A stretch of DNA of 53,276 nt, from contig JAAYJV010000021.1 in the NCBI GenBank assembly GCA_012522755.1, positions 1 through 53,276 of the forward strand, written 5' to 3'. The notes under the pieces are model-generated. The model worked only from the letters and a program-made list of their open reading frames with translations. It searched no databases and was not told the DNA's origin. Numbering within the stretch: the stretch's first letter is position 1; the number at the start of each line of letters is the position of its first letter. The translations under genes were made by a program, and so were the position numbers. Shown piece after piece: positions 8,193-46,606 of the stretch. Source of the stretch: Candidatus Hydrogenedens sp. (GTDB lineage: Bacteria; Hydrogenedentota; Hydrogenedentia; Hydrogenedentales; CAITNO01).

Positions 8193-8745
8193 CAAGGACG
8201 TAATTATAGGTGATAGGGAATAGGGAATAGGTGATAGGGAATAGGTGATAGGACTGACGACCTTGCGTCGCGTACCTGGGAACGCCAATTTCCACATTGG
8301 CAAACGGCGCGTAATGACGTGGAGTGTAAAGTGATTTGGTTGCGGTGTAGGGGCTGCCTTTATCTTGAATCCTCCGGCGAGACCATTCCCTGGAAAACTT
8401 TCCGGCGGTGAAGGTCCTAACGTGGGAGCGCCAACGTCCCTGTTGGCACACATCGGGTATAGTGCGCAGATAATTTGTAAACAGTGCTTCGGCAACATGC
8501 CTTCTGAAAATCAGAAATCAATGAAGACTTTACGGCCCCGTTAAATATCCACATGAGTTAAGGTCTTTTCCCGGGTGTCCTGCCAATGTGGAAATTGGCG
8601 TTCCCAGGTAAGTTTTCGCGGCTTTTCTGAACCTTTGCGTACAGCCTGACGACCAGAAAAAAACTTTTCTTCTTCGTGTTACTACCCGTCATCTTTCATT
8701 ATTTTTTCGAAGAAGTTTATTTGTCCAGGGGAACGGCATGCCGTG

Positions 8746-25716: not shown

Positions 25717-26187
25717 CCATGTTTGCGGCCTTCGGCGTGGCCCTTCTGACGGTCGTCATGTCGGGGTTCTCGGTCACTTCCCTTGCCGCTTGAGGTAAAT
25801 AAGAGACTACAAGGAATTAGAGATCTCAGGGAAATCAGTCGGATCGGTCGGATCAGTCGGATCGGACGAATCTGCGAGGATAATGGCAGGGAGTTCGATG
25901 ACAGAATGCCAGCGCCTAATTTGGTTGCGGCTATGCTGGGCTGTGTTTGTCTTGCTCATCGGTACTGCTTCTCCTTTTTTCAGCTTTTCCCCGTCGGCCT
26001 CGCCCGGTTCCCGTCCCGGAGAGATGAGGGATAGGCTGACAACTTTGAGCCGCGCCACCTGGGAGCGCCAAAGTCCCTGTTGGCAGACGGCTGGCTCTAT
26101 CTTGGAAGTGTCTGTGACCCGGTTCCGGTACATTTATTTTTCCTCAGGCAAGTCCGTTATTTCAAATACTCTGATATAATTAAGGGT
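25717..26187. repeat. Spacer with GTCGGATC minisatellite and a GCCAA hairpin element
   Basis: No gene seen. 25826-25880 carries about five direct copies of a 10-bp GTCGGATCGG/GTCGGATCAG motif. A hairpin element of the dispersed GCCAA..TTGGC family lies at 26060-26087. Confidence 0.7.
26175..26180 (+). promoter_or_regulatory. Consensus -10 box abutting the DUF362 start (leaderless mRNA likely)
   Basis: TATAAT at 26175-26180 is a perfect -10 and the ATG begins at 26188. A start site 7-8 nt downstream of the box would fall on the A of the start codon. No Shine-Dalgarno sequence precedes the ATG. The -35 region (about GTCCGT, 26152-26157) is weak. Confidence 0.5.
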
Positions 26188-32160: not shown

Positions 32161-32739
32161 TCAAGGGTCTTTGCGGGGGGTGGACATGCGCAAAGGGTTC
32201 TGTATGCCGGTGACCGTGATGCTTCCGTCTTTGTGAACAATGACTTCCGTAGCGGGAAGGAGGTGGAGATCGCGCGGGGCGTAAGAGGACGTGAGGAAAT
32301 GAAGCTTTTGGTTTTCCGAAGCGAGGAGGTTGTTGTCCATGTGATGGGCATGCTCGTAGCGGCCTGCTATAAGCATGTCGGTGTGGCTGAGGATGGCCGG
32401 ATCCAGGGGCATCCGGTTCACCTCTTCGAGGGTGTAACCGGTAAAAATGACGATGGTGAGTGCCGCGGCATGAATTCGGGTGACCAGGCTGAGGAGGGCC
32501 TCAGGCTGCTGAAAAGGTTCGCCGCCGGAAAAGGAGACGCCCTCGATTTGCTTCTTGCGAGACAGGATTTCCCGGACGGTTTCTTCGACCGTTGTTTCGT
32601 AGCCGCCTTCGGGATCATGCGTCGCGGGATTGAAGCATCCCGGACAGTTCAGAGTACAGCCCTGGAGCCAAAGCACAGCTCTCAGTCCAGGGCCGTTGGC
32701 ACGGCTGGCGGGTTCAAAGGCATGTAAACGCAGATGCAT
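32161..32739 (-). CDS. NrdG-like radical SAM activating enzyme
   Basis: 192 aa. The radical SAM cluster motif C-x3-C-x2-C is Cys28-TLN-Cys32-PG-Cys35, preceded by ASRANGPGLRAVLWLQG as in anaerobic ribonucleotide-reductase activases. The SAM-binding FSGGEPFQQPEAL follows. Canonical NrdG sits beside nrdD, and none is visible here. It is instead the last gene of the minus-strand AAA/FGE island, 125 bp after the third FGE-fold gene. A modification role on a component of that system is possible. ATG 32739 is chosen for alignment with the family; the ribosome site is weak. Confidence 0.82.
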   Translation of the reverse strand: MHLRLHAFEPASRANGPGLRAVLWLQGCTLNCPGCFNPATHDPEGGYETTVEETVREILSRKKQIEGVSFSGGEPFQQPEALLSLVTRIHAAALTIVIFTGYTLEEVNRMPLDPAILSHTDMLIAGRYEHAHHMDNNLLASENQKLHFLTSSYAPRDLHLLPATEVIVHKDGSITVTGIQNPLRMSTPRKDP

Positions 32740-32864
32740 CCGAAGTTGTGTTCCTCACAGGTGACAGGGCTGATTGATTTGCATGAATTTTCTGCGGATT
32801 GCGTGCAAGAAAATTTCGACCGCTCGCAATACAAAGGGTAAAAGAGCTGAAGAGTAAAGGGTAA

Positions 32865-32991
32865 TCATAAGAGAGTCCTGGAACAACGAAAACCCTTGAG
32901 GCCGTTGCGATACGTCGGATCGCCGTCGTCGCGATCCGCGCACCGGAAATGGCCCGTATTACCGTCGTACCACGAACCGCCACGAAGCACC
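32865..32991 (-). other. DGR-type variable region 1 (3' end of FGE gene 1)
   Basis: Constant flank encodes RVLRGGSW and constant end encodes GFRCSRTLL-stop; the core at 32895-32969 is hypervariable relative to paralogues 2 and 3. Many variable codons end in C with changes at the first two bases (TAC/CGC/TAC, GAC/TAC/AAC, GAC/CCC/AAC, GGC/AGC/TAC). This is what adenine mutagenesis of AAC template codons yields. The homology continues past the stop (TTATGATTACCCTTT...CTTTTACCCTTT). Confidence 0.65.
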
Positions 32992-33698
32992 CGATATTCG
33001 TCAGTCACCGGCGCCGTTAAATCCCCCTGTTTATATCTTGTGTATGCGTCCTCATCGTACCAATCAGCGCACCATTCCGATATGTTCCCCGCCATCTGGT
33101 AGCAGCCCCAATAGCTGCACCCTTCCGGATAGGACCAGATCCCGCAGGTCCTCTCATTGCCCCTGCTAACACTGTTTCGGCACTTCTCCGTATCCCAATC
33201 CTTCCCCCACGGGTATTCACGACCGTCCACGCCACGCGCTCCCTTTTCCCACTCCAATTCCGTCGGCAATCTCAAGCCCGCCCACTCGCAATAGGCCTGC
33301 GCGCCAAACCACGATACCCGCACCACCGGATGGTCGGCTTTCCCGTCGTACGACTCGAATCCCCTTCCCGAGGAGCGAACAAAACAATCACTGTCAAGCA
33401 GTATCCACTTCTCCAATTCTGTCTTGTTCGGTCTACGCACAGTCAGGAAACGCGCATACTGCGCGTTCGTCACCGGATGCAAGGCCAGATAATAGGCCGG
33501 CAAATGCACCGGAAAAGGTCCGCAGCCTTCATCACTATACTCAGAGCCTCCCGCCAGAAACTCGCCCTCAGGAATCAACACCAGAAGCGTGCCGTCCGTC
33601 GGGTTCTCAATCAGCAGATCACGACCTTCCGCCCTCAGGAATGGCAAAGGCCGGTGATTTTCAATCGTCGGTGTCTGGCTACTAGTTTCTTCAGTCAT
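32865..33698 (-). CDS. FGE/SUMF1-fold protein 1 with hypervariable C-terminus
   Basis: 277 aa. ATG 33698 follows AAAGGAGAGG, 14 bp from the kinase-AAA gene. The FGE-sulfatase/C-type-lectin-like fold is shown by [74 protein letters not shown] and [14 protein letters not shown]. The two catalytic cysteines of true formylglycine-generating enzymes are absent: the equivalent residues are Asp and His. It is probably a ligand-binding module rather than an oxidase. Its last 40 residues differ sharply from the two paralogues only within a short core, the pattern of a DGR variable protein. No signal peptide is seen, so it is cytoplasmic. Confidence 0.88.
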
Positions 33699-33712
33699 AT
33701 CCTCTCCTTTTT

Positions 33713-36043
33713 TTATTGTGCATGCCTGGCATGGCGTTGCGCCCAATCCGTAAGCGCCCGGATTTCAGCCTGGCGCGATCTGGACAAAGGCGGCGCTTCC
33801 TTCAGTGCGATCAGCATATCCGTTGTTTCGAGCTCGCGATCAGCTTCGAAGGCGCGAAAGAGCCCGGAGATGACGGCCTGTTCGATTTCCGCGCCGGAGT
33901 ACCCTTCGGAAGCCTCGACAAGCGCCTGCAGATCGAAGTTTTCCGGGTCTCGTCCGCGTTTGGCCAGGTGGATACGCAGGATGGCTTCCCGTTCCGGCTT
34001 CGTGGGGAGTCCGACGAAGAAGATATCGTCGAAGCGGCCCTGGCGCAGAAATTCAGGCGGAATAGCGCTGAGGTCGTTGGCGGTGGCCACGACGAAGACC
34101 GGGCTGCGTTTGTCCTGCAGCCAGGTTAGGAAATGCCCGAATACGCGGGCCGCCACGCCACCTCCGCCCTGACCGCGTACGCCTGCAAAGCCTTTCTCGA
34201 CTTCATCAATCCAGAGGATGCAGGGGCTGACGGCCTCGGCGGTCTGGATGGCGCGTCGCAGATTGGCTTCCGAAGCGCCGACTATGGGACCAAAGATGCG
34301 GCCCACGTCAAGACGGAGCAGGGGCACGCTCCAGGCCCCGGCCAGAGCGCGTGCGGTCAGGCTCTTGCCGCAACCGGGGACACCCACGAGCAGCACTCCG
34401 CGGGGTTGCGGCAGACCGGCGTAACGCGCCACGCCCGCGAATACGGGCATCCGGCCTCTGAACCATTCGAGGAGCCGGGTCAGGCCACCCACATCCTTAA
34501 ATGATTCGGAAGTGTGGTAATACTCGAGGATGCCGGACTTGCGGATCACCTGCGTCTTCTCCTCAACCACCATACGGACCGCCTCGATTCCGAGACCGCC
34601 GTGGCGCAAGACCGCCGCCCGAATGGCACGTTCGGCCTCGTTTAACGTCATGCCGGCCGTTGCGCGAAGCAAGGCGGTGCGGGTCTCTTCGTTTTTGTCC
34701 ACGCTCAGGCCCGCTTGCGCGCATTCTTCGGCGAGGCGCTCGATCAGCGGGTCGAGATGCTGGCGGTCCGGCAGCTGGAACACGGCCAGCGCGACCTGTT
34801 TTTCAAGTTCCTCGGGCACTTTGTAGAAGGGGGAGAGGAACAGGACCGATTTGCGCGTCATGCGGACAGCCCGTGCTGCGTCACGCACCAAACGGGTTGT
34901 CACGGGCGTGAAGTGGTGGTGCAGGTCGAGAAACAGGTAGATGGCGTCCTCCGGATTTTCGATCACGTGGACCAGGGCTCTCGTGGGATCTTCCATCGAG
35001 TCCGGCCGGACCAGTTTGTCCTCCTCATCCCGCAGGCCGCGCGAGGCACTCCACAAATACAAGCGGCGCGGTCGGCCCCGGTCTTCGGAAAGCCGCCGGG
35101 CAATGTCTCGCACCGAGGCCATCACGCGGTCCTCCTCGAAGGAAAGTACGCACACAATCGGAAAACTGGCGCGAATCAGAATCTCGAGCCTGCTCTCGTC
35201 GTCGTCTGCCATCCGCGTACGGCGTGCGACGACCTCAAGGTCGCGGCTCAGCTCATCGGCGGTCTGGTAACGGCGCTCCGGGTCCTTGTTGAGCATCTTG
35301 CGCAAGACGCGCACCATACGGTTGTCCACCTGTTTCTCGCGCAACGGTTCCTCGTCATACCGCGCCGCCATGATCTTCTGGATGATTTCGCCGACCTCGC
35401 CGGTGAAGGGGGGCGACCCGGTCACCAACTCGTACAGGATCACGCCGAGCGCCCACAGATCAGCATTCGTTCCCGAGGCACCTTGGAGCGCTTCAGGAGC
35501 CATGTAGGCGACCGTGCCGATCCGGGTGCTGGCTTTGTCACTGATTCGGGCGAGCATCCGTGCCACGCCGAAATCCAGCAGCTTGGGAGTGTTGTCCGAC
35601 GTGATGAAGATGTTTTCCGGCTTGACGTCACGGTGAAACACGTGGGCTGTATGGGCATAGGCCAGGGCCTCGGATATCAGCCCCACATGCCGCACCGCTT
35701 CCGGCAAGGCGAGAGACTTCTGCTCACGCAGGCGGCTGCGCAGCGAGGTGCCTTCGAGATACTCCATGACCAGGAATGAAATGCCTTCGTGCTGCTCCAG
35801 CGCGAACACCTGCATAATGTTCGGGTGGATCAGCCGCCGGGTCATTTGGAATTCTTTATCGAGTTCCGCCAGTCCTTCCGGGTCCTGCCGGTGAGGGAAT
35901 CCCAGTGCCACTATAGCGTCAGGGAGCGTGCCGCCACGGTTGCGCGCCCGGTAGACGCTCTTGAACGCACCAGATCCAAGATATGCCTCCAGAACATAGG
36001 GACCAAATCGCTGCCCGGTTTTGTAAGGCCCGCCTGATGGCAT
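33713..36043 (-). CDS. Ser/Thr-kinase-like domain fused to Ycf46-type AAA ATPase
   Basis: 776 aa. ATG 36043 follows GAAAGGAC. Residues ~10-280 are a PknB-type kinase fold: [10 protein letters not shown] at 22-31, HRDVKPEN at 137-144, DFG at 157-159, and YMAPEAL. The beta-3 lysine is missing: VALG with Gly48 replaces the usual VAxK, so ATP transfer may be weak, rewired or lost. Residues ~300-776 resemble Ycf46: a degenerate N-terminal ATPase half, then Walker A GVPGCGKS with Lys560, Walker B CILWIDE with Asp613, and the [16 protein letters not shown] segment carrying the arginine finger. It lies between FGE genes 2 and 1. It probably senses or remodels FGE-protein complexes; this is inference. 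Confidence 0.88.
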
Positions 36044-36217
36044 AATCTTGTCCTTTCGTAATGAACTGTCACCCTTCAGCGGTCTGGTCTCGCTGACAGC
36101 TGACTGCTGATTGCTTCCCAAAAAACAAAGAAAGGCGCGCCTGCGTCGCGACCAGAGAAGGAGTAATCTCTCTGGATTCTCCCACAAAAGGTAAAAGAGA
36201 CAAAGTGCAAAGGGTAA

Positions 36218-36346
36218 TCATAAGAGAGACCTGGAACAACGAAAGCCGTTGTTTCCGAAGCGAAACGCAGAATCGAAGCTGGGGTAGCGGTGCGTGCACC
36301 GGAAGAGCTTCGCATCGCTTTTGCGCCACGAACCGCCACGAAGCAC
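36218..36346 (-). other. DGR-type variable region 2 (3' end of FGE gene 2)
   Basis: Constant flank RVLRGGSW; variable core at 36248-36325 encoding RKSDAKL, then constant FRC, then [16 protein letters not shown]; constant GFRCSRSLL-stop. The DNA past the stop (TTATGATTACCCTTTGCAC...CTCTTTTACC) is shared with regions 1 and 3. Constant flanks with a scrambled core are not expected from ordinary paralogue drift. Confidence 0.65.
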
Positions 36347-37072
36347 CCGATCGCCGCCAGTCTCGGGTGTCGTCAAATCTCCCTGCTTATACCTTTCGTA
36401 TGCATCCTCGTCGTACCAATCTGCGCACCATTCATCTACGTTCCCAGCCATCTGGTAGCAGCCCCAATAGCTGCACCCTTCCGCATAGGACCAGATCCCG
36501 CATGTTCTCTCACTGCTCTTGTTTGTGTCATTTCGGCACTTTCCCCGGTCCCAGTCATTCCCCCACGGGTACTCACGACCATCCACGCCCCGCGCCCCTT
36601 TTTCCCACTCCAATTCCGTAGGCAATCTCAAGCCCGCCCACTCGCAATAGGCCCGGGCATCCTCCCAGCTCACGCACACCACAGGATGGTCCGCCATCTC
36701 CGGTGGAAAGCTTGCGCCCCGCCACACAGGAGTATCAAACTTGAATTGCGCTTTATCCGGCGGACGGTGCCCTGTCTCATCCACAAAGCGCTTGTACTGC
36801 GCATTCGTCACCGGATGCAAGGCCAGGTAATAGGCCGGCAAATGCACCGGAAAAGGTCCGCCGCCTTCATCATCCTTAGAGCCTCCCGCCAGAAACTCGC
36901 CCTCAGGAATCAACACCAAAAGCGTGCCATCCTTGGGGTTCTCGATCAGCCATTCGGGCATCAAAAAATTCCGGGTGGACAATGGCTCGACATGCGGATA
37001 ATCGTCCGGCGGCCGCCCTGGTACTGTCCAGGCCACAGCTTTCTTTCCTGATTGCTCATGCGCTTCAGTCAT
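36218..37072 (-). CDS. FGE/SUMF1-fold protein 2 with hypervariable C-terminus
   Basis: 284 aa. ATG 37072 follows GGAGGAG. It carries the same fold blocks as paralogue 1 ([64 protein letters not shown]). A different N-terminal extension begins [15 protein letters not shown], and a decayed duplicate of that extension lies at 44250-44393. Catalytic FGE cysteines are replaced by Lys and Leu. The variable core is one codon longer than in the other two copies. The gene starts 21 bp after the Ycf46-B stop. Confidence 0.88.
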
Positions 37073-37093
37073 TTCTCAACTCCTCCGCTGTTG

Positions 37094-38745
<1,652 letters not shown>

Positions 38746-38749
<4 letters not shown>

Positions 38750-38949
38750 CGTCCGGCCTCCAGGTCGCGCTCGACTTCGGACTCAGCTTCGGTCTCGTAA
38801 TACTCGGGTTTGAGCTCCCGTTCGCCGATAGGGATGCCCAGCCGTTTTTCAAGCCCGTGTGTGAACTCGATGCAGGTCTTACCCTCTGCGCCAAGCACCT
38901 CGATGCGCTGCGTACCGTCTTTGTGAATGGTAACTTGCATTTTCTTCAT
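38746..38949 (-). CDS. DUF2997-family small protein
   Basis: 67 aa. ATG 38949 follows AAAGGAG; longer upstream reading in this frame lacks a site and crosses the Ycf35 gene. The sequence MKKMQVTIHKDGTQRIEV..GKTCIEFTHGLEKRLG matches the pattern of DUF2997, a small family found next to Ycf35/DUF1257 genes. Function is unknown. ATGA overlap with Ycf46-B indicates tight coupling. Cytoplasmic, acidic C-terminus. Confidence 0.82.
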
Positions 38950-38971
38950 AATTCGATTCTCCTTTCCTGGT

Positions 38972-39364
38972 TCAACCGCGCTCGGACAACAGCAGCACGA
39001 TATCGCCGTTTTCGAGCACTTCTTCCTTTTCGACGACGAGATACTGCTCGCGTGCCTGATCCTTGACAAGATTGTAGGCATACCGCCGGTTGACATCCTG
39101 TACGAAGGTCTCCTGGCGAATCGGCGAATTGCCCTCTACACCCCACCAGTCCGCAACGATCTCGAATTGTTCAGCTTTGCGCTGAAATCCGATGTCGTAC
39201 TGGCAGCCGGTGTTCACCACCACTTCGGCACGTTCCTGGTTGCCGGAATAACCCCGCACCAGAAGGTTCTGGCCTTCCTGAAACTGGCAGTGCAGATCAC
39301 GGAGTGCCTGCACCAGATGTTCCTGTTCGCGAATCCGGGTCTGAATGTGTAGAAAATGAGACAT
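38972..39364 (-). CDS. Ycf35/DUF1257-family protein
   Basis: 130 aa. ATG 39364 follows AAAGGAG. The start MSHFLHIQTRI and the blocks VRGYSGNQERAEVVV, YDIGFQRKAEQFEIVADWWG and VNRRYAYNLVKDQ are the signature of Ycf35, a protein of cyanobacteria and algal plastids with unknown function. It is placed between two Ycf46-type ATPase genes, 22 bp before the DUF2997 gene. This conserved neighbourhood suggests one complex or pathway. Confidence 0.9.
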   Translation of the reverse strand: MSHFLHIQTRIREQEHLVQALRDLHCQFQEGQNLLVRGYSGNQERAEVVVNTGCQYDIGFQRKAEQFEIVADWWGVEGNSPIRQETFVQDVNRRYAYNLVKDQAREQYLVVEKEEVLENGDIVLLLSERG

Positions 39365-39393
39365 GTTTTCTTCTCCTTTCGTATCTCGAATTC

Positions 39394-40926
39394 TTATTCT
39401 GTTTCAATGATGCGTCCACGCGTACCCGCTACCGTCTGTTCTCCAGTCGAGGCCGGGAATGCCCGGCCTTCAGTTTTCCATTTGCGCAGGCTTTCGATGA
39501 TCTCCGTATGCGATTTGCTGAGGGGTACGACCTCACGTATGGCGGACAGCAAGTCCTCCTCTTCGATCTCACGATGGCCGTCTGCGAAAGCCGTGAACTG
39601 AGCCTCGCGCACAATGCGCTCGATCTCGCGCCCCACGAATCCCCGGCTTCGGGCAATGAGTTCCTCAAATCGGAATTTCCGTTCCGGGAAAGTCTCGCCG
39701 GCACACTTCAGATGGATCTTGAGAATATCGCGCCGCTCCGTCTCATTGGGCAAATCGAGGAAGAAGGTGCGGTCGAAGCGGCCCATCAGTTCTGCGGGCA
39801 GTGCCTCCACGTCGTTGGCCGTCGCGAGTACGAAGACCGGTGTCCGATGCTCCTGCATCCAGGTCAGGAACCCGCCGAAGACCCGTGTGGCGGCCCCGCT
39901 GTTAATGGAGCCCGCCCCGACCCCGGCAAAGGCCTTTTCCATCTCGTCAATCCACAGGATGCACGGGCTGACCGTCTCGGCCAGCATGATGGCCTTTTGC
40001 ATGTGTTTTTCTGACTCGCCCAACAGTGATTCGAAGACCGCGCCGATATCCAGACGCAGCAGCGGCATTTTCCATATCCCGGAAACCATCCTGGCCGACA
40101 GACTCTTGCCCGTACCGGAGATCCCGATCAAGGCCACGCCGCGCGGAAAGGGCAGACCCGCCAGCCGGGCCTCTTCAGAGAAAGCCGTCTCGCGTTTTTT
40201 CAGCCATTCTTTCAGCAGGTCCAGTCCGCCCACTCCTGCTTCGCCTTCTTCGGCGGGCCAGAATTCGAGTGCCCCGCTCTCGCGCACCACCTCGCGTTTG
40301 GCCCACATCACCATCTCGATGCCGCGCTCGTCAAACTTGTCAAAACGCGCCCACACCCGCGCAAAGGCCTGCCGCGCCTGGTTGGTGGTCAGGCCCAGAG
40401 CCGAGGAAATCAGTTTTGCCCGAACCGACTGACTTGGCAGCCCGGTTCGATCCAGACCGCTGGTCTGGTCCGCGAAGAGCCGGGTCAGTTCCTCCGTATT
40501 CGGCAGCGGCACGTGGAGTACCAGTACATCGTCCTTCAGTTCGGCTGGCAAATTAAGCATTGGTGTAATAAACACCAGGAACTGGTTCTTTCTGCGCAAT
40601 TCCGGCGCCATATTGCGAAGTTTCCGCGTGACCAGTCCCTTCCTGGCGGCCCACGTGTGGTGAAAATCCTTGAGGATCATCACCGTTGCCGGTGGCAGAT
40701 GCTCAGAGAGGGCCGGCAGCAGCGTATCGGCCGTCAGATCCTTGTCAAAAACCTGCTGGCCCGCACGGACGCAGCTCAGGCCATCCGCAATGTCCCACGT
40801 GTAGATGCCAAGCTGCCCGGGCAGCTTCTCAATCGTCCGGATCACACGATCTTCTTCATAGGTGATCAGGTTAAGCATCGACACACCAGCGCCAAAGAGC
40901 TCGCTGAGTTCTTCTTTAAGATTCAT
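39394..40926 (-). CDS. Ycf46-type AAA ATPase A
   Basis: 510 aa. AGAGGA lies upstream of ATG 40926. It has the same bipartite plan as ATPase B. The N-terminal half (GVSMLNLITYEEDRVIRTIE, VMILKDFHHTW) lacks Walker motifs. The C-terminal half has Walker A GISGTGKS with Lys274, LDIGAVFESLLGESEKHMQK, Walker B CILWIDEMEKAF with Asp327-Glu328, and ELMGRFDRTFFLDLP. It differs enough from B (for example GISGTGKS against GVPGCGKS) to be an old paralogue. Three related ATPases in one operon suggest a mixed AAA ring. Confidence 0.92.
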   Translation of the reverse strand: MNLKEELSELFGAGVSMLNLITYEEDRVIRTIEKLPGQLGIYTWDIADGLSCVRAGQQVFDKDLTADTLLPALSEHLPPATVMILKDFHHTWAARKGLVTRKLRNMAPELRRKNQFLVFITPMLNLPAELKDDVLVLHVPLPNTEELTRLFADQTSGLDRTGLPSQSVRAKLISSALGLTTNQARQAFARVWARFDKFDERGIEMVMWAKREVVRESGALEFWPAEEGEAGVGGLDLLKEWLKKRETAFSEEARLAGLPFPRGVALIGISGTGKSLSARMVSGIWKMPLLRLDIGAVFESLLGESEKHMQKAIMLAETVSPCILWIDEMEKAFAGVGAGSINSGAATRVFGGFLTWMQEHRTPVFVLATANDVEALPAELMGRFDRTFFLDLPNETERRDILKIHLKCAGETFPERKFRFEELIARSRGFVGREIERIVREAQFTAFADGHREIEEEDLLSAIREVVPLSKSHTEIIESLRKWKTEGRAFPASTGEQTVAGTRGRIIETE

Positions 40927-41040
40927 GGCTCATTTTCCTCTCGTGGGTTCCCGCAAAGGTGCCCAATGCTCCGGGTGAAAAAATCGGCCCCTCCTTTCGC
41001 TCGCGCATAAAGGGTAAAAGAGATAAAAGGCAAAGGGTAA

Positions 41041-41170
41041 TCATAAAAGACTCCTGGAACAACGAAAGCCGCAGCCGTCGTAGCGATGAGCCGGATCGTA
41101 GTTGTTGCGTGCTGCGCACCGGAAGGTGACCAAATAGGAGTTGTACCACGAACCGCCACGAAGCACCAGC
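41041..41170 (-). other. DGR-type variable region 3 (3' end of FGE gene 3)
   Basis: Flank LVLRGGSW, variable core 41071-41145 (YNSYLVT, constant [18 protein letters not shown]), constant GFRCSRSLL-stop. Adjacent AAC AAC codons (NN) remain in the core, as in DGR templates. Shared DNA continues ~60 bp beyond the stop (TTACCCTTTGCC..CTCTTTTACCCTTTATGCGCGAGCGAA). Confidence 0.65.
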
Positions 41171-41832
41171 CTGTTGCCAGTCCTCGGCGCAGTCAAATCT
41201 CCCTGCTTATATCTTTCGTATGCATCCTCATCGTAGCAATCTGCGCACCATTCCCAGGCGTTCCCCGCCATCTGGTAGCAGCCCCAGAGACTGCACCCTT
41301 CCGGATAGGACCAGATCCCGCATGTTGTCTCACCGCCCGTGTTTGCATCATTTCGACACTTCTCCGGGTCCCAGGCATTCCCCCACGGATATTCACGGCC
41401 ATCCACGCCCCGCGCCCCCTTTTCCCATTCCAATTCCGTCGGCAATCTCAAGCCTGACCATTCACAATAGGCCTGTGCATCCTTCCAGCTCACGCACACC
41501 ACAGGATGGTCCGATTTCTCCGGTGGAAAACTTGCGCCTTGCCACACCGGTGTTCCCCAATCGGCTTTATCCGGCGAAGGGTGGTCCGTCGCGTCCACAA
41601 AGCGTTTGTACTGCGCATTCGTCACCGGATGCAAGGCCAGGTAATAGGCCGGTATGCGCACAGGGAAAAGCTCGCCGCCCTCATTTCTCCCCGGGCCTCC
41701 CGCCAGAAACTCGCCCTCCGGAATCAACACCAAAAGCGTACCATCCGTCGAATTCTGTATAAGCACATCGTGCCGGCCTTCAGGGAAAGGCTCGATGGGC
41801 TGGTGATTCTCAATTGCCAGTGTTCGGCTCAT
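41041..41832 (-). CDS. FGE/SUMF1-fold protein 3 with hypervariable C-terminus
   Basis: 263 aa. ATG 41832 is preferred: GGAG lies 9 bases upstream, and the next residues [16 protein letters not shown] align with the start of paralogue 1. The frame is open to an ATG at 41964, but that would overlap the IS630 remnant. It carries the same FGE blocks ([55 protein letters not shown]). Catalytic cysteines are replaced by Asn and Thr. The start overlaps the stop of the upstream small ORF as ATGA. Confidence 0.88.
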
Positions 41833-41975
41833 AACGCTGTCTCCATTCCCGTGGCGGCCAGCAGCGCAATCTTTGCGCGAACCACCACCCGCATCGGTGT
41901 CATAGGGCTCTTGGACCATTTTTTCAGTGTGGTACGTTCCCGAGCATTCACCACAATCTGACATGAATTTCTCAT
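41829..41975 (-). pseudogene. IS630-family transposase N-terminal remnant
   Basis: 48 codons from ATG 41975 (AGGAGA ~9 bases upstream). The peptide [19 protein letters not shown], then [17 protein letters not shown] matches the N-terminal helix-turn-helix of IS630/Tc1-type transposases and then ends. The TGA overlaps the FGE-3 start (ATGA), so whatever its origin it now acts as a coupled leader between the Hsp70 and FGE-3 genes. No catalytic DDE part or inverted repeats are seen. Confidence 0.65.
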
Positions 41976-42046
41976 AGTACTCATTCTCCTATAAAGGATG
42001 AATACCTTTCAAGGCCAACAGCTTGCCTTGATTATGAATCGCTTCG

Positions 42047-43669
42047 CTACAGTCTCACCACGGGGTGATTTTCCATGATATTCCTCCCTTTCAGGTTATC
42101 CAACACTGTTACGAGCAGTTGCCGGCGGGCATCCACCTGGAAGAAACACAAAAAACGCTGTTGGTCCCGTGCCATATTGATCGGCGGGTCGGCGATAATG
42201 AATGTCGGGTTTTCATCATTCAGGCAGATGTACTCGTACTCGGAATCGACCCGGTTGCTGAGGCGGCCGTCGGCGCCATAAATAGAGGTGGTCAGGCTCC
42301 GGCGCTTCATCCGGGACACCTCGAAAATCTTCAAGCCGATGCGCGTCATACCGTTGTAGGCGCCTTTGGCACAGATCCGGACCGCATCGCGTTCGGTAGG
42401 GTACTCGGTTCCCATTTTGAACAGTGGCTTGAACACGGAAGTCCTTTTGTCTGGCCGCAGGCCCCTGATGGCGTAGTCGTGCTGCAAGATCGGTTCGACA
42501 ATGCCCCGACAGGCCCCGCGCACCACCGTGTCAAAGGGATGGTCATAGGCGACCCGCCCGCCGAACTGGTCTTCCAGCATTTTTCGGACGCAGGGCACCA
42601 GGGCGGTTCCTCCCGTGACCAGCACGCGCGTCACGTCATCTCGCCGCATTCCCACCTTCACGGCGGCGTTTTCAAGAGCCTGTTCCAGCACTTCTCGAGC
42701 TTGCCGGGCAAAGCTCATATTCAAAAGGATACAGCCCAGACAGGCCAGCCCGGCTTCTGGATGCTGTCCGGTCTGGCCGCATTCGCAGGCTGCGCAACTC
42801 CGGACATACGAGGTCTGGTGCACCCGGGGCGTTCGGCCCGTCTGCCGCACGATGGTCACGGAGGCGTCTGTTTCCATGGGGTCGGACAAGCGTTTCTTCG
42901 CCTCCTCGACCTGCCGCAGGATAAAGGCGTCGAGTTTGCGCCGCGTGTCGGCGTCCAGGTCATGACGCCGGCAAAAATCGTCCGCCAGGTGCAGGTCGAT
43001 GTCCATGCCACCCAAATCACGGCCGGCCTGGCCCAGTTGAATCGCCTTGCGTTCCGCGCCCGGTGACATATCCAAGCGCACCGCCGACACATCGGTCGTA
43101 CCGCCGCCAAAGTCGAACACCACGAACCGTTCATTCTGGCCGGCCGCACCGTGGTAGCCGAACACACAGGCCGTCGGTTCATCCAGGAGGCGCACGCGTT
43201 GGATTTGCAATCCTTCCGCAACCCGCAGCAGCCAGTCCTGATAGTCCTCGAAGGCCTCAATGGGTTTTGTAAAGGTGAATTCGTCCTGGAAGGAGATGCG
43301 GTCTGTCGCGTAATTCAGCAGCAACCGCAGAAAATCCTCGCCAGCTTCCGCCGCACACTTGAAGCCTTTCGCCGTCTTCTTGCGTCTGGTGTTGCCTTGG
43401 ACAATCGTGCGCTTCATCCAGCGGAAGGTATCGGGATGTTCAGCCAATCCACGTGACAACACCTGGTCGCCAATCAAGATTTCGCTTTCCGAATAGTGGA
43501 TAAGCGACGGAGTCACCTGAACGGACTGTTCCGGTGCGCCCGGCTCGAAGCGGTAGCGCATCTCGGTTGTAATGCCGGGAATCTCAATGGACTCCGGCTG
43601 TTGCAGCGTTTCGCTGAAGCGCGCAAGCAGGGTGTTGCAGGTCCCGAAATCAACGGCCACTTTCCCCAT
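42047..43669 (-). CDS. Hsp70/DnaK-like ATPase with inserted cysteine cluster
   Basis: 540 aa. ATG 43669 follows GAAGGAGGAG and lies inside the GrpE-like gene (20-bp overlap). The actin-fold ATPase motifs are phosphate-1 VAVDFGTCNTLLARF, VRLLDEPTACVFGY, phosphate-2 VVFDFGGGTTDVSAV, and adenosine-site VLVTGGTALVPCVRKML. A CAACEC..CLGC cluster (Cys292, 295, 297, 310, 313) is inserted in the second ATPase lobe where DnaK has none; it looks like a metal site. The canonical beta-sandwich substrate domain and lid are not evident. The last ~130 residues are unlike DnaK. It is a dedicated chaperone-like switch, not the housekeeping DnaK. Confidence 0.88.
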   Translation of the reverse strand: MGKVAVDFGTCNTLLARFSETLQQPESIEIPGITTEMRYRFEPGAPEQSVQVTPSLIHYSESEILIGDQVLSRGLAEHPDTFRWMKRTIVQGNTRRKKTAKGFKCAAEAGEDFLRLLLNYATDRISFQDEFTFTKPIEAFEDYQDWLLRVAEGLQIQRVRLLDEPTACVFGYHGAAGQNERFVVFDFGGGTTDVSAVRLDMSPGAERKAIQLGQAGRDLGGMDIDLHLADDFCRRHDLDADTRRKLDAFILRQVEEAKKRLSDPMETDASVTIVRQTGRTPRVHQTSYVRSCAACECGQTGQHPEAGLACLGCILLNMSFARQAREVLEQALENAAVKVGMRRDDVTRVLVTGGTALVPCVRKMLEDQFGGRVAYDHPFDTVVRGACRGIVEPILQHDYAIRGLRPDKRTSVFKPLFKMGTEYPTERDAVRICAKGAYNGMTRIGLKIFEVSRMKRRSLTTSIYGADGRLSNRVDSEYEYICLNDENPTFIIADPPINMARDQQRFLCFFQVDARRQLLVTVLDNLKGRNIMENHPVVRL

Positions 43670-44222
43670 TAACGATCTCCTCCTTCGCGGTCGCAGCACT
43701 GTCCGCAGTGGTTACCATCGCTTTCAACAGCACCTTCGCGCCCATCCGGTACCCCGGCATCTGCACAACTACCGGCGTCCCCGTACGGACCGTCGAGCCG
43801 CTCATGCGCTGGTGCAGCGCAATGTCAAAGTCCGCGGCGTCGCCCGTTGCACCCACACGTTCGAGCCCCTTCCGCGCCAGTTCGCGTTCCAATGTGTCAA
43901 ACAACTGAACGAAATCCGCCGCTTCGGCTGTCTGGCCTTTACGCGCCAACTCAACCAGTGTCGCCAGGTTTGACAGCGGACCCGCAAGCCGTTTGAACAA
44001 CCCTTCCAGTTCGTTTTGCCCGGCTGTCTCTTTCGCCTTCCCTTTGCTTATCTCGAGCTGGGCATACTCCGCCTGCATCGCGGTAATCCGGTCATCCCGC
44101 TCGCGCAGATCCATTTCGAGCTCGGCTATTCGTGCCCGATGGCCCGCTTCGTCTTCCGGCGCTTCCGCCTCGCGCCCGAACAACGCCGCCCACCATCGCC
44201 ACCAGTGTCCTTTCTTTTTCAT
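43650..44222 (-). CDS. GrpE-like nucleotide-exchange factor
   Basis: 190 aa. ATG 44222 follows CAGGAGG. It has a Trp-rich start (KKKGHWWRWWAALF) and a coiled coil about residues 25-60. The C-terminal beta-domain resembles GrpE: GDAADFDIALHQRM, then GTPVVVQMPGYRMGAKVLLK, equivalent to the DFDPxxHEAV..VVEVxxxGYxxxGRVLRPA pattern. It overlaps the Hsp70-like gene and should be that protein's private exchange factor. Housekeeping grpE would normally sit with dnaK, dnaJ or hrcA, which are absent here. Confidence 0.8.
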   Translation of the reverse strand: MKKKGHWWRWWAALFGREAEAPEDEAGHRARIAELEMDLRERDDRITAMQAEYAQLEISKGKAKETAGQNELEGLFKRLAGPLSNLATLVELARKGQTAEAADFVQLFDTLERELARKGLERVGATGDAADFDIALHQRMSGSTVRTGTPVVVQMPGYRMGAKVLLKAMVTTADSAATAKEEIVNGESGR

Positions 44223-44249: not shown

Positions 44250-44393
44250 TCAATATCCGCAGGCAAAACCGGATGTTTTTTTCAAAAAAGTTCCTCCGTA
44301 CCTTCGACTCGCATGCGGCTGACCGTCCGGAGGCTGTCCTGGTACTGTCCCGGTCACATCTTGCTCTCCTGATTGCTCATGCGCCTCAGTCAT
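44250..44393 (-). pseudogene. Decayed N-terminal duplicate of FGE gene 2
   Basis: 47 codons: [20 protein letters not shown] and then divergence and stop. This matches [20 protein letters not shown] of the FGE-2 protein, and the upstream GAGTTGAGAA is also shared. It marks a place where another FGE gene once followed the HEAT-repeat gene. Confidence 0.75.
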
Positions 44394-44396
44394 TTC

Positions 44397-46049
44397 TCAA
44401 CTCTTTCCCGCATCTCCAAATTCGACTGGCGAATCCCCGGATTCGATCTCAACATCATCAAACACAGGTGTCGTTACCCAGTACGTCATGATTCCTTTCA
44501 GAACGCGCCGCACTGCGCTGTAGCGGCCGATCCATGCCTCGTGCGGCGCAGATTGAAGTGCCTCCAAATCTGCTGGAGTCGCCTGGTCGGGCCAGAATTC
44601 AAGCAAAGCATGCGAGGTGACCAGCTCTTCCAGCCAGAAGTTATCATCTTCGACCTTCTCCAGCGAAGGATGCGGACACAGACCCGTCGCATGTCCGGCA
44701 AGTCGGATAAGCCAGTGCGGGCTGCTGCGGATGGCCTCCGCCGTGTCTGCGCCAGTTCCACCCTGACGCGCCAACTCCGCAACGATTGAAACGCCTTCCA
44801 TAGGCGTCACCCTTCGAAGTTGCTCCGCTGAACCCGAGACTGGCCTGGCCAGCCATTGCTCAAACAGTGGGCTCGTGGCATCGCCCTTCCTGACATCCCG
44901 CAGTTTCCGCCCCTGGCTGTCTTGCAAAAGTTGCTTGTACAGCTTGCGCTGGTCGTCTTTGTCCGGCTCCCAGCCCGATGCGCGAAAATGCGCAAGCAAC
45001 CGGAACCCATATTTCAACGGAAGTTGCAGGAAGGCCTCGAACAGACGCGGCCAATCCTTGTGTCGGAGGCCCGACTCGATGGCCAGTGTGATCTCGTCGT
45101 CGCTGCATTCGCAAAGCGGTTTGTGCGAACCGAAAAAGCCCAGGCAGCGCCGGTCGCCTGAGCGGACAATCTCCATCACCTGCGCCTGAACCGTTGCATC
45201 GGCCCGTTCGTACGCCAGCCGGAGATTCTGAAACTCGTAATCCTCCTTGAAATAGGCGTCCAACTGCCGCGTCACAAACAAAAAAAGGCTGACTTCTTCC
45301 GGATCCGATGGACGGTAGCCGGCCTCGATACATATCGTTGCAGCCAGGCCTGCGGGATCGCGCGTCGCCAACCGGCAAAGGGCCGCCCGAAGCTTGGGGG
45401 CGTCGAGCGCACACAGCATCGCGTGGGCTCGTTGGGCCAAATCGGGATCGCTATCCCGGGTGGCGATGCTATACAAAAAGAGGATGGCTTCTTCCGGGTC
45501 CGATGGACGGTAGCCGGCCTCGATGCATATCTTTGCAGCCAGGCCTGCGGGCTCCTGCGTCGCCAACCGGCAAAGGGCCGCCTGCGCCTCGGGATTGCCG
45601 AGTGTGCGCAGTGTCACATACGCACGTTGCACCAAAAGAGGATCGGTATCCCGTGCTGCGGCGACAAAGGCCTCCAAAACGGACTCGTCCCCAATCACGG
45701 AGCTCCCCTGGTTCACCTTCAGCGCAGACAACACCCGCACCTCGACCGGTTGCATCGCAACATACCCGCACTCCTCGATGATCCGCTCCAAGACTTCGTC
45801 GCGGCTCTTAGCCCATATCGCACACAAGGCGTCCACCGCGCCAGTATCCCGAAGGTCACGTAAGGCGCATTCCGCTGTCTCCCGTACCTGTGCGTCCCGG
45901 TCGCTCAACGCTTCCAGGAGATAGGGTACTGCGTCAGCGTCGGCGACCTGCGCAAAATGGGCACAGGCCCGGCGCCGACGTCCGGTTCCCAACAGCGGGG
46001 CATGGCTGTGAAGCCGTTTCGCCCAATACTGAACTTCAGTCTGAACCAT
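44397..46049 (-). CDS. HEAT-repeat protein
   Basis: 550 aa. ATG 46049 follows CAAGGAG. N-terminal HEAT/Armadillo-like helices (VPYLLEALSDRDAQVRETAE, CALRDLRDTGAVDALC) are followed by two near-identical internal repeats of ~75 residues. Each repeat carries ALCRLAT..PAGLAA.ICIEAG then YRPSDPEE. A conserved FVTRQLDAYFKEDYEFQNLR block follows. The C-terminal ~180 residues are a separate helical region. No signal peptide is present. HEAT solenoids are scaffolds; this is the first gene of the minus-strand island and a likely recruiter for the Hsp70/AAA components. Confidence 0.85.
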   Translation of the reverse strand: MVQTEVQYWAKRLHSHAPLLGTGRRRRACAHFAQVADADAVPYLLEALSDRDAQVRETAECALRDLRDTGAVDALCAIWAKSRDEVLERIIEECGYVAMQPVEVRVLSALKVNQGSSVIGDESVLEAFVAAARDTDPLLVQRAYVTLRTLGNPEAQAALCRLATQEPAGLAAKICIEAGYRPSDPEEAILFLYSIATRDSDPDLAQRAHAMLCALDAPKLRAALCRLATRDPAGLAATICIEAGYRPSDPEEVSLFLFVTRQLDAYFKEDYEFQNLRLAYERADATVQAQVMEIVRSGDRRCLGFFGSHKPLCECSDDEITLAIESGLRHKDWPRLFEAFLQLPLKYGFRLLAHFRASGWEPDKDDQRKLYKQLLQDSQGRKLRDVRKGDATSPLFEQWLARPVSGSAEQLRRVTPMEGVSIVAELARQGGTGADTAEAIRSSPHWLIRLAGHATGLCPHPSLEKVEDDNFWLEELVTSHALLEFWPDQATPADLEALQSAPHEAWIGRYSAVRRVLKGIMTYWVTTPVFDDVEIESGDSPVEFGDAGKS

Positions 46050-46082: not shown

Positions 46083-46187
46083 TTATGCGTTCCTGTCGCA
46101 GACGAAAACCGCACCGGCTGAATACGCCGCTGTTATCAGGTCCTCAAAGGAGCAGACCTGCTCGAAGATGTTGCCATACCGTTTCAT
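46083..46187 (-). pseudogene. DGR-type reverse transcriptase, N-terminal remnant
   Basis: 34 codons from ATG 46187 to TAA. The first ~20 residues, MKRYGNIFEQVCSFEDLITA, have the form characteristic of the N-terminus of DGR and related group-II-like reverse transcriptases (MKRYGNLFE.ICSFENLL.A). The reading then leaves the family and stops, so the catalytic domain was deleted, and the HEAT-repeat gene follows 33 bp on. Its location just after a decayed FGE 3' end is the standard DGR order: target/template, then RT. Confidence 0.6.
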
Positions 46188-46234
46188 CGCTTTACCCGAT
46201 TATGGACAACCGCCCAACCGATTTCAAAAAAAAT

Positions 46235-46345
46235 TCGTCCCATCGCTTCGCTCGCACATAAAGGCTGAAAGGGATAAAGAGCAAAGGGTAATCATAAGAG
46301 AAGAGACTCCTGGAACAAAGAAAGCCGCTGTCCCCAACGCCCGCC
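46235..46345 (-). pseudogene. Fourth, decayed FGE 3' end (variable or template region)
   Basis: Reading minus, GGCTTTCTTTGTTCCAGGAG matches the GFRCSR-encoding end of the three FGE genes. TTATGATTACCCTTTGCTC..CTTTATGTGCGAGCGAAG matches the DNA after their stops. The FGE body upstream is missing. Being ~120 bp before the RT-like remnant, it could be either a lost target's 3' end or the old template repeat. Confidence 0.65.
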
Positions 46346-46606
46346 CCTGTCATTACAAGGGTGCTCCGGGTATTTGCAGAGGGAGAACAGACCGCTGATC
46401 GCAAGTCCCTGCGTCACGATCAGGCCCGGCAAAAGCGCCACCGTCCTTGCCGTGACAGATGCCAACAGGGACGTTGGCGCTCCGTAATGGCGCTCCGTCA
46501 TAAATCCCGAGATCCGCCATTGCAGGCGCTGGTTGTGAATCCTTTTGTTTCCTCCATCGGCAAAGCAACGGAATATCTGGATCTCTTTCAGTTTTCAGGT
46601 ATTCGA

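Follow-up and report, generated by a model that had tools for sequence, protein, structure and literature searches.

The window, by which we mean the whole stretch of 53,276 nucleotides that was analyzed, carries on its minus strand a cluster of FGE-domain genes and, at the upstream edge of this cluster, a 34-codon open reading frame (ORF), referred to in the following as the stub, that is the start of a DGR reverse transcriptase (RT) gene. The preliminary description of this DNA concerned positions 46083-46345, which span the stub and an FGE 3' end. Reading along the minus strand, the order is FGE 3' end (46328-46229), 41 bp, stub (46187-46083), 33 bp, and a HEAT-repeat gene (46049-44397), with the FGE end upstream of the stub. 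The features are as follows:

32865..33746 (-): FGE-domain gene with a variable region, from its codon-position signature
36218..37072 (-): FGE-domain gene with a variable region, from its codon-position signature
41041..41964 (-): FGE-domain gene (PF03781, E 2.7e-52) with a DGR variable region near the 3' end, from its codon-position signature
44308..44403, at widest 44250-44403 (-): FGE 5'-end fragment between the HEAT and GrpE genes, 87% identical to 36986-37082 over 97 bp
44397..46049 (-): HEAT-repeat protein gene (PF13646, E 1.1e-16), starting 33 bp past the stub stop, with a homologue at the corresponding place in G026
46083..46187 (-): truncated DGR RT, the 34-codon ORF MKRYGNIFEQVCSFEDLITAAYSAGAVFVCDRNA and its stop, from HMM, relatives and phage and plasmid RTs
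46091..46112 (-): GCGGTTTTCGTCTGCGACAGGA, possible remnant of a template repeat 3' end, resembling the FGE and template repeat end; suggestive only
46229..46328 (-): fourth FGE 3' end, comprising the last codons (repeat end), the stop and a conserved post-stop element, from identity to the FGE genes and alignment with G026
46329..46489 (-): junction DNA from the FGE remnant to the cut neighbor, with a dispersed repeat (GGAGCGCCAACGTCCCTGTTGGCA)
46490..46578 (+): remnant of a GH4-like gene, 3' part, 75% identical over 89 bp to contig C48 of G001; called GH4-like from reading the translation

The genomes used for comparison were G026, from another family of the same order (Hydrogenedentota), G013, from the same family as the window, and G001, a sister species; the genome of the window itself is G000. 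From 32161 to 44222, also on the minus strand, the FGE genes are interleaved with genes for a radical SAM activase-like protein, a kinase-AAA protein, two AAA proteins, a DUF1257 protein, and Hsp70-like and GrpE-like proteins, and the main parts of this cluster recur in G026. A defence-system reading of the AAA and kinase domains was set aside, as the PADLOC matches were only to broad families. The interior of the HEAT gene contains a tandem 188-bp repeat at 45278-45660, with 80% identity between the copies.

In G026, the order is FGE (complete, with a variable region), stub, HEAT, GrpE, Hsp70, FGE and AAA, and the window has the same order from the stub onwards. Since FGE, stub and HEAT are also adjacent in G026, the HEAT junction is common to both genomes and is not a local accident. 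The preliminary description had proposed that the local RT was deleted, perhaps when the HEAT gene was joined at this point: no local RT is left, as it said, but the junction is not private to this genome. An intact RT between the FGE and HEAT genes, for which it had pointed to relatives, was not found in any relative examined; G013 has the HEAT gene, a radical SAM gene between FGE and HEAT, and no stub.

Peculiar to this genome is that the FGE body upstream has gone, at the edge where the GH4-like gene was cut. The sister species has an intact, convergent GH4-like gene after a symporter gene; in the window, all that is left of it is 89 bp of the 3' part (46578-46490), separated from the FGE end by 161 bp containing the dispersed repeat. 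This repeat, centered on GCCAACGTCCCTGTTGGC, was seen at 46455-46480, 8428-8448 and 26065-26085 and on many contigs of the genome, with some copies near contig ends.

The 34-codon reading frame

The 34-codon ORF is the N-terminus of a DGR-type RT, in degenerate form. For 14 RTs of the phylum, the 50 N-terminal residues were used to build an HMM, with both stubs left out. Against this HMM, the window stub scored E 2.1e-8, ranking first among the 1396 ORFs of the window (runner-up 0.026), and the G026 stub scored E 2e-8, ranking first among 413 ORFs. In a search of 100 genomes, the window stub matched the intact 372-aa RT frame of G014 with 63% identity over 24 aa (E 7e-4) and the short ORF of G026, the second stub, with 73% identity over 22 aa (E 2.5e-6); other intact RT frames matched it at their start, more weakly than G014. 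In phage and plasmid collections, its weak matches (E 0.4-9) were almost all annotated as reverse transcriptases, one of them beside avd. The protein search thus bears out the preliminary description, which had recognized the opening of a DGR RT in this ORF.

The homology is confined to codons 1-24 (46187-46116). The last ten residues have no match, the RT catalytic motifs are absent, and the ORF stops at 34 codons. Searches with the stub gave no match in PDB or Rfam and a weak RT match in PHROGs (E 0.13). An exact search with the stub motif found nothing among viral contigs and one match among the species genomes, and a related RT used as query matched no viral contig. The unmatched final residues would fit an ORF that had arisen by chance and bore no relation to RTs; given the HMM score, the near-uniform RT annotation of the phage and plasmid matches, which are to N-termini, and the second stub in equal gene order in another family, we consider such an origin exceedingly improbable.

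The RTs to which the stub is related include DGR enzymes. Mismatches between the two copies of a nearby repeat fell on template adenines in 22 of 22 cases at locus C68 of G003, in 21 of 22 at C7 of G013, and in 25 of 31 at C255 of G013, whose RT is related but not included in the HMM. At the remaining related RT loci tested, no adenine-biased repeat pair was found nearby. These three loci show that some RTs of the set, at least, come from DGRs. In related loci, a template-like repeat sits after the RT.

No such RT was detected in the two genomes with stubs. In the genome of the window, the sole RVT_1 match was an RT-Cas1 fusion; in G026, no DGR RT matched at E 1e-8. The fusion gene lies at L002 7978-9933 (contig C79), and its Cas1 part was recognized by eye. 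No additional repeat copy was found by repeat pattern in either genome, where only genes of the FGE cluster matched, or by BLAST in the draft assembly of G000. Both assemblies are drafts with a completeness of 95-96%, and the missing DNA might contain an RT or a template. The locus is not a functional DGR as it stands: neither an intact RT nor an adenine-biased template repeat was found.

The FGE genes as DGR targets

The FGE 3' end next to the stub (46328-46229) is 82-83% identical to the ends of the genes at 41041-41964 and 36218-37072 and about 80% identical to that at 32865-33746. With 80-83% identity to all three, it is indeed a fourth copy, as the preliminary description stated. In the complete FGE genes, the variable region lies between RGGSW and GFRC. 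Here, differences fall on codon positions 1 and 2, while the third bases are mostly C, with G in a few columns; outside the variable region the pattern is reversed and position 3 varies most. The contrast has an odds ratio of 3.1 (p 8e-6) within the window and 12.2 (p 6e-50) within G026, although in both cases the sequence pairs and counts are not independent. In the G026 variable regions, third-base differences are also few (0.105, against 0.308 elsewhere; p 3e-13), indicating recent overwriting. Third-base divergence in the variable regions of the window is not reduced (p 0.37), which favors an older stop here.

By this signature, the FGE genes are DGR targets, past or present. The codon pattern fits adenine mutagenesis, but the adenine rule itself is deduced from that pattern, because no template was found. 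The earlier proposal of a tie between the hypervariable FGE genes and retroelement activity is in agreement with these data.

Copies of the FGE genes appear to have arisen within each genome, with a post-stop element carried along. This element, ACCCTTTGnnCTTTATCyCTTTTACCCTTTG, follows FGE genes at 32833-32861 and 36186-36214 and in homologous places on contig C102 of G026 and contigs C19 and C324 of G013. Among the four genomes searched, the pattern was confined to FGE-cluster contigs, with two matches each in G000, G026 and G013 and none in G001. It has been kept between genomes whose silent sites are saturated, and it may contribute to recognition of the target. Of the hairpins after the variable region, that of one G026 copy is strong (z -3.5), that of one copy in the window has a stem of 7 bp, and the others are weak.

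Probable remains of a DGR cassette

The reading we favor, at a probability of about 85%, is that the locus is what remains of a DGR cassette that belonged to the Hydrogenedentota cluster of FGE, AAA-ATPase, kinase, Hsp70, GrpE and HEAT genes, and whose RT and template have since been deleted. The ancestral cassette would have comprised an FGE target with its variable region, the RT, probably a template repeat, and then the HEAT gene. The RT would have reverse transcribed the template with adenine errors and thereby rewritten the variable regions at the 3' ends of the cluster's FGE genes. Deletion of RT and template would have left approximately the first 22-24 RT codons in front of HEAT, and in this genome the upstream FGE gene would also have been cut away, with its 3' end alone remaining. 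Where the template repeat lay, when and how often deletions occurred, and that this locus itself was once active are inferred. That only 24 RT residues remain counts against the cassette reading.

The DNA after the stubs suggests where the template might have been. In the window, GCGGTTTTCGTCTGCGACAGGA reads GFRLRQE in another frame, and a template in G013 reads GFRLAAARQE; the resemblance has p ~0.015 against random 69-mers of the window. The tail of the G026 stub holds GCCGCGAGAAAAGCG, whose only other occurrences on the contig follow two FGE genes (p 0.007 against random DNA of the contig). Both resemblances are weak and were found after the fact, and homology between the two tails was not significant (p 0.29). 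Together with the template-like repeat that follows the RT in related loci, the repeat-end-like tails suggest an order of variable region, RT and template repeat from which the body of the RT and the template have been removed.

The stub is better conserved than a decaying remnant would be expected to be. Between the window and G026, 51 of 63 nucleotides are identical (81%), including 20 of 21 second codon positions, while fourfold sites in five flanking genes are saturated at 43-49% identity. The excess over a neutral value of 0.485 is significant (p 1e-7), but that over the 73% of a selected gene is not (p 0.10). At the protein level, the stubs are 76% identical over 21 codons, and the AAA-kinase gene of the cluster is 77% identical. 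Conservation begins at about the ATG and ends at codon 22; the sequences that immediately flank this block are not conserved, and the FGE post-stop element, further upstream, is. RT homology stops at about the same codon in both stubs, and the distance from the stub ATG to the HEAT ATG is 138 and 135 bp, respectively. The intact RTs gave no sign of special silent-site conservation at the starts of their genes. The word "fossil", used in the preliminary description, is appropriate in that the ORF is an RT remnant; given conservation far above that of neutral sites, it may be too simple.

How the RT was lost can be explained in several ways. If it was lost twice, separately and rather recently, and the protein was under selection until then, the conservation of the stub is accounted for and the stub needs no present function. 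We give this explanation a little less than even odds. The stub is then expected to be conserved like other proteins of the cluster, as seen with the AAA-kinase gene, and the scarcity of third-base differences in the G026 variable regions is expected of recent overwriting; the tails after the stubs also differ, resembling different parts of the repeat end. Two independent deletions would not be expected to end at nearly the same codon and leave nearly the same spacing to HEAT, however, and the unreduced third-base divergence in the window suggests that activity there stopped longer ago. The shared end point and spacing speak for the other explanation, a single loss before the lineages split. 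The stub must then have a role, given its conservation, and its first 22 codons would have been kept for a function, for example as a leader in HEAT translation or as a nucleic-acid element. Both the identity far above that of fourfold sites, with second positions nearly invariant, and the limits of the conserved block agree with this scenario, which we nevertheless consider rather unlikely: it rests on two sequences and 63 bases that do not differ significantly from a selected gene, G013 carries HEAT without a stub, and such a fragment has no known function and no Rfam match. As to the more specific proposal that selection kept the first 22 RT codons after the enzyme was lost, as a leader or nucleic-acid element between the FGE target and HEAT, we are doubtful.

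A full RT might also never have been present here. In that case, the FGE 3' end and the start of the RT would have arrived together, on a segment copied from another DGR locus, and the RT codons would mark the edge of that segment. The apparent copying of FGE genes with their post-stop element within each genome, and the other FGE fragment at 44308-44403, make such an event conceivable. The source locus was not found in either assembly, though, and the repeat-end-like sequence after the stub in both genomes looks, albeit weakly, as if RT and template had been excised. We think it improbable that the stub arose in this way.

On the cassette reading, a hypervariable FGE cluster is tied to a retroelement no longer found in the genome, and loss of the RT can be dated relative to the gene copies, as overwriting appears to be recent in G026 and to date further back in the window. 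The locus thus offers a test case for the fate of targets after loss of their mutator and for why a short piece of RT stays conserved.

Degenerate DGR loci are a kind already known; new here are a stub common to two families and its conservation. Publications retrieved in a search on truncated or orphan DGR RTs were for the most part unrelated. In Thiohalocapsa PB-PSB1, degenerate loci have targets with a missing or pseudogenized RT or template, repeats and mobile elements shape the loci, and some targets were diversified from elsewhere or before the disruption (PMC10907252). Each class there retains one complete locus, whereas here the assembly yielded no RT and no template, and the present remnant is common to genomes of two families. 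The FGE-target DGRs of the same phylum, such as G003 C68, share an FGE-type target, a homologous RT N-terminus and adenine-biased template and variable repeats, but their RT and template are intact; between target and RT, G003 C68 also carries a short ORF whose position suggests an Avd-like product, and the stub locus lacks this ORF. In the Bordetella phage BPP-1 DGR, elements downstream of the variable region matter for homing (PMC3240598); the variable region is likewise at the 3' end of the target, whereas here a hairpin is clear only in some copies and there is no RT or template. Finally, in the DGR-linked FGS/VMAP conflict systems (PMC7159879), NTPase and chaperone genes similarly occur alongside FGE-type domains that a DGR diversifies. 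The present cluster consists of AAA, kinase-AAA, Hsp70, GrpE, HEAT and radical SAM genes; a core of MoxR-vWA, VMAP or GTPase type was not identified in it.
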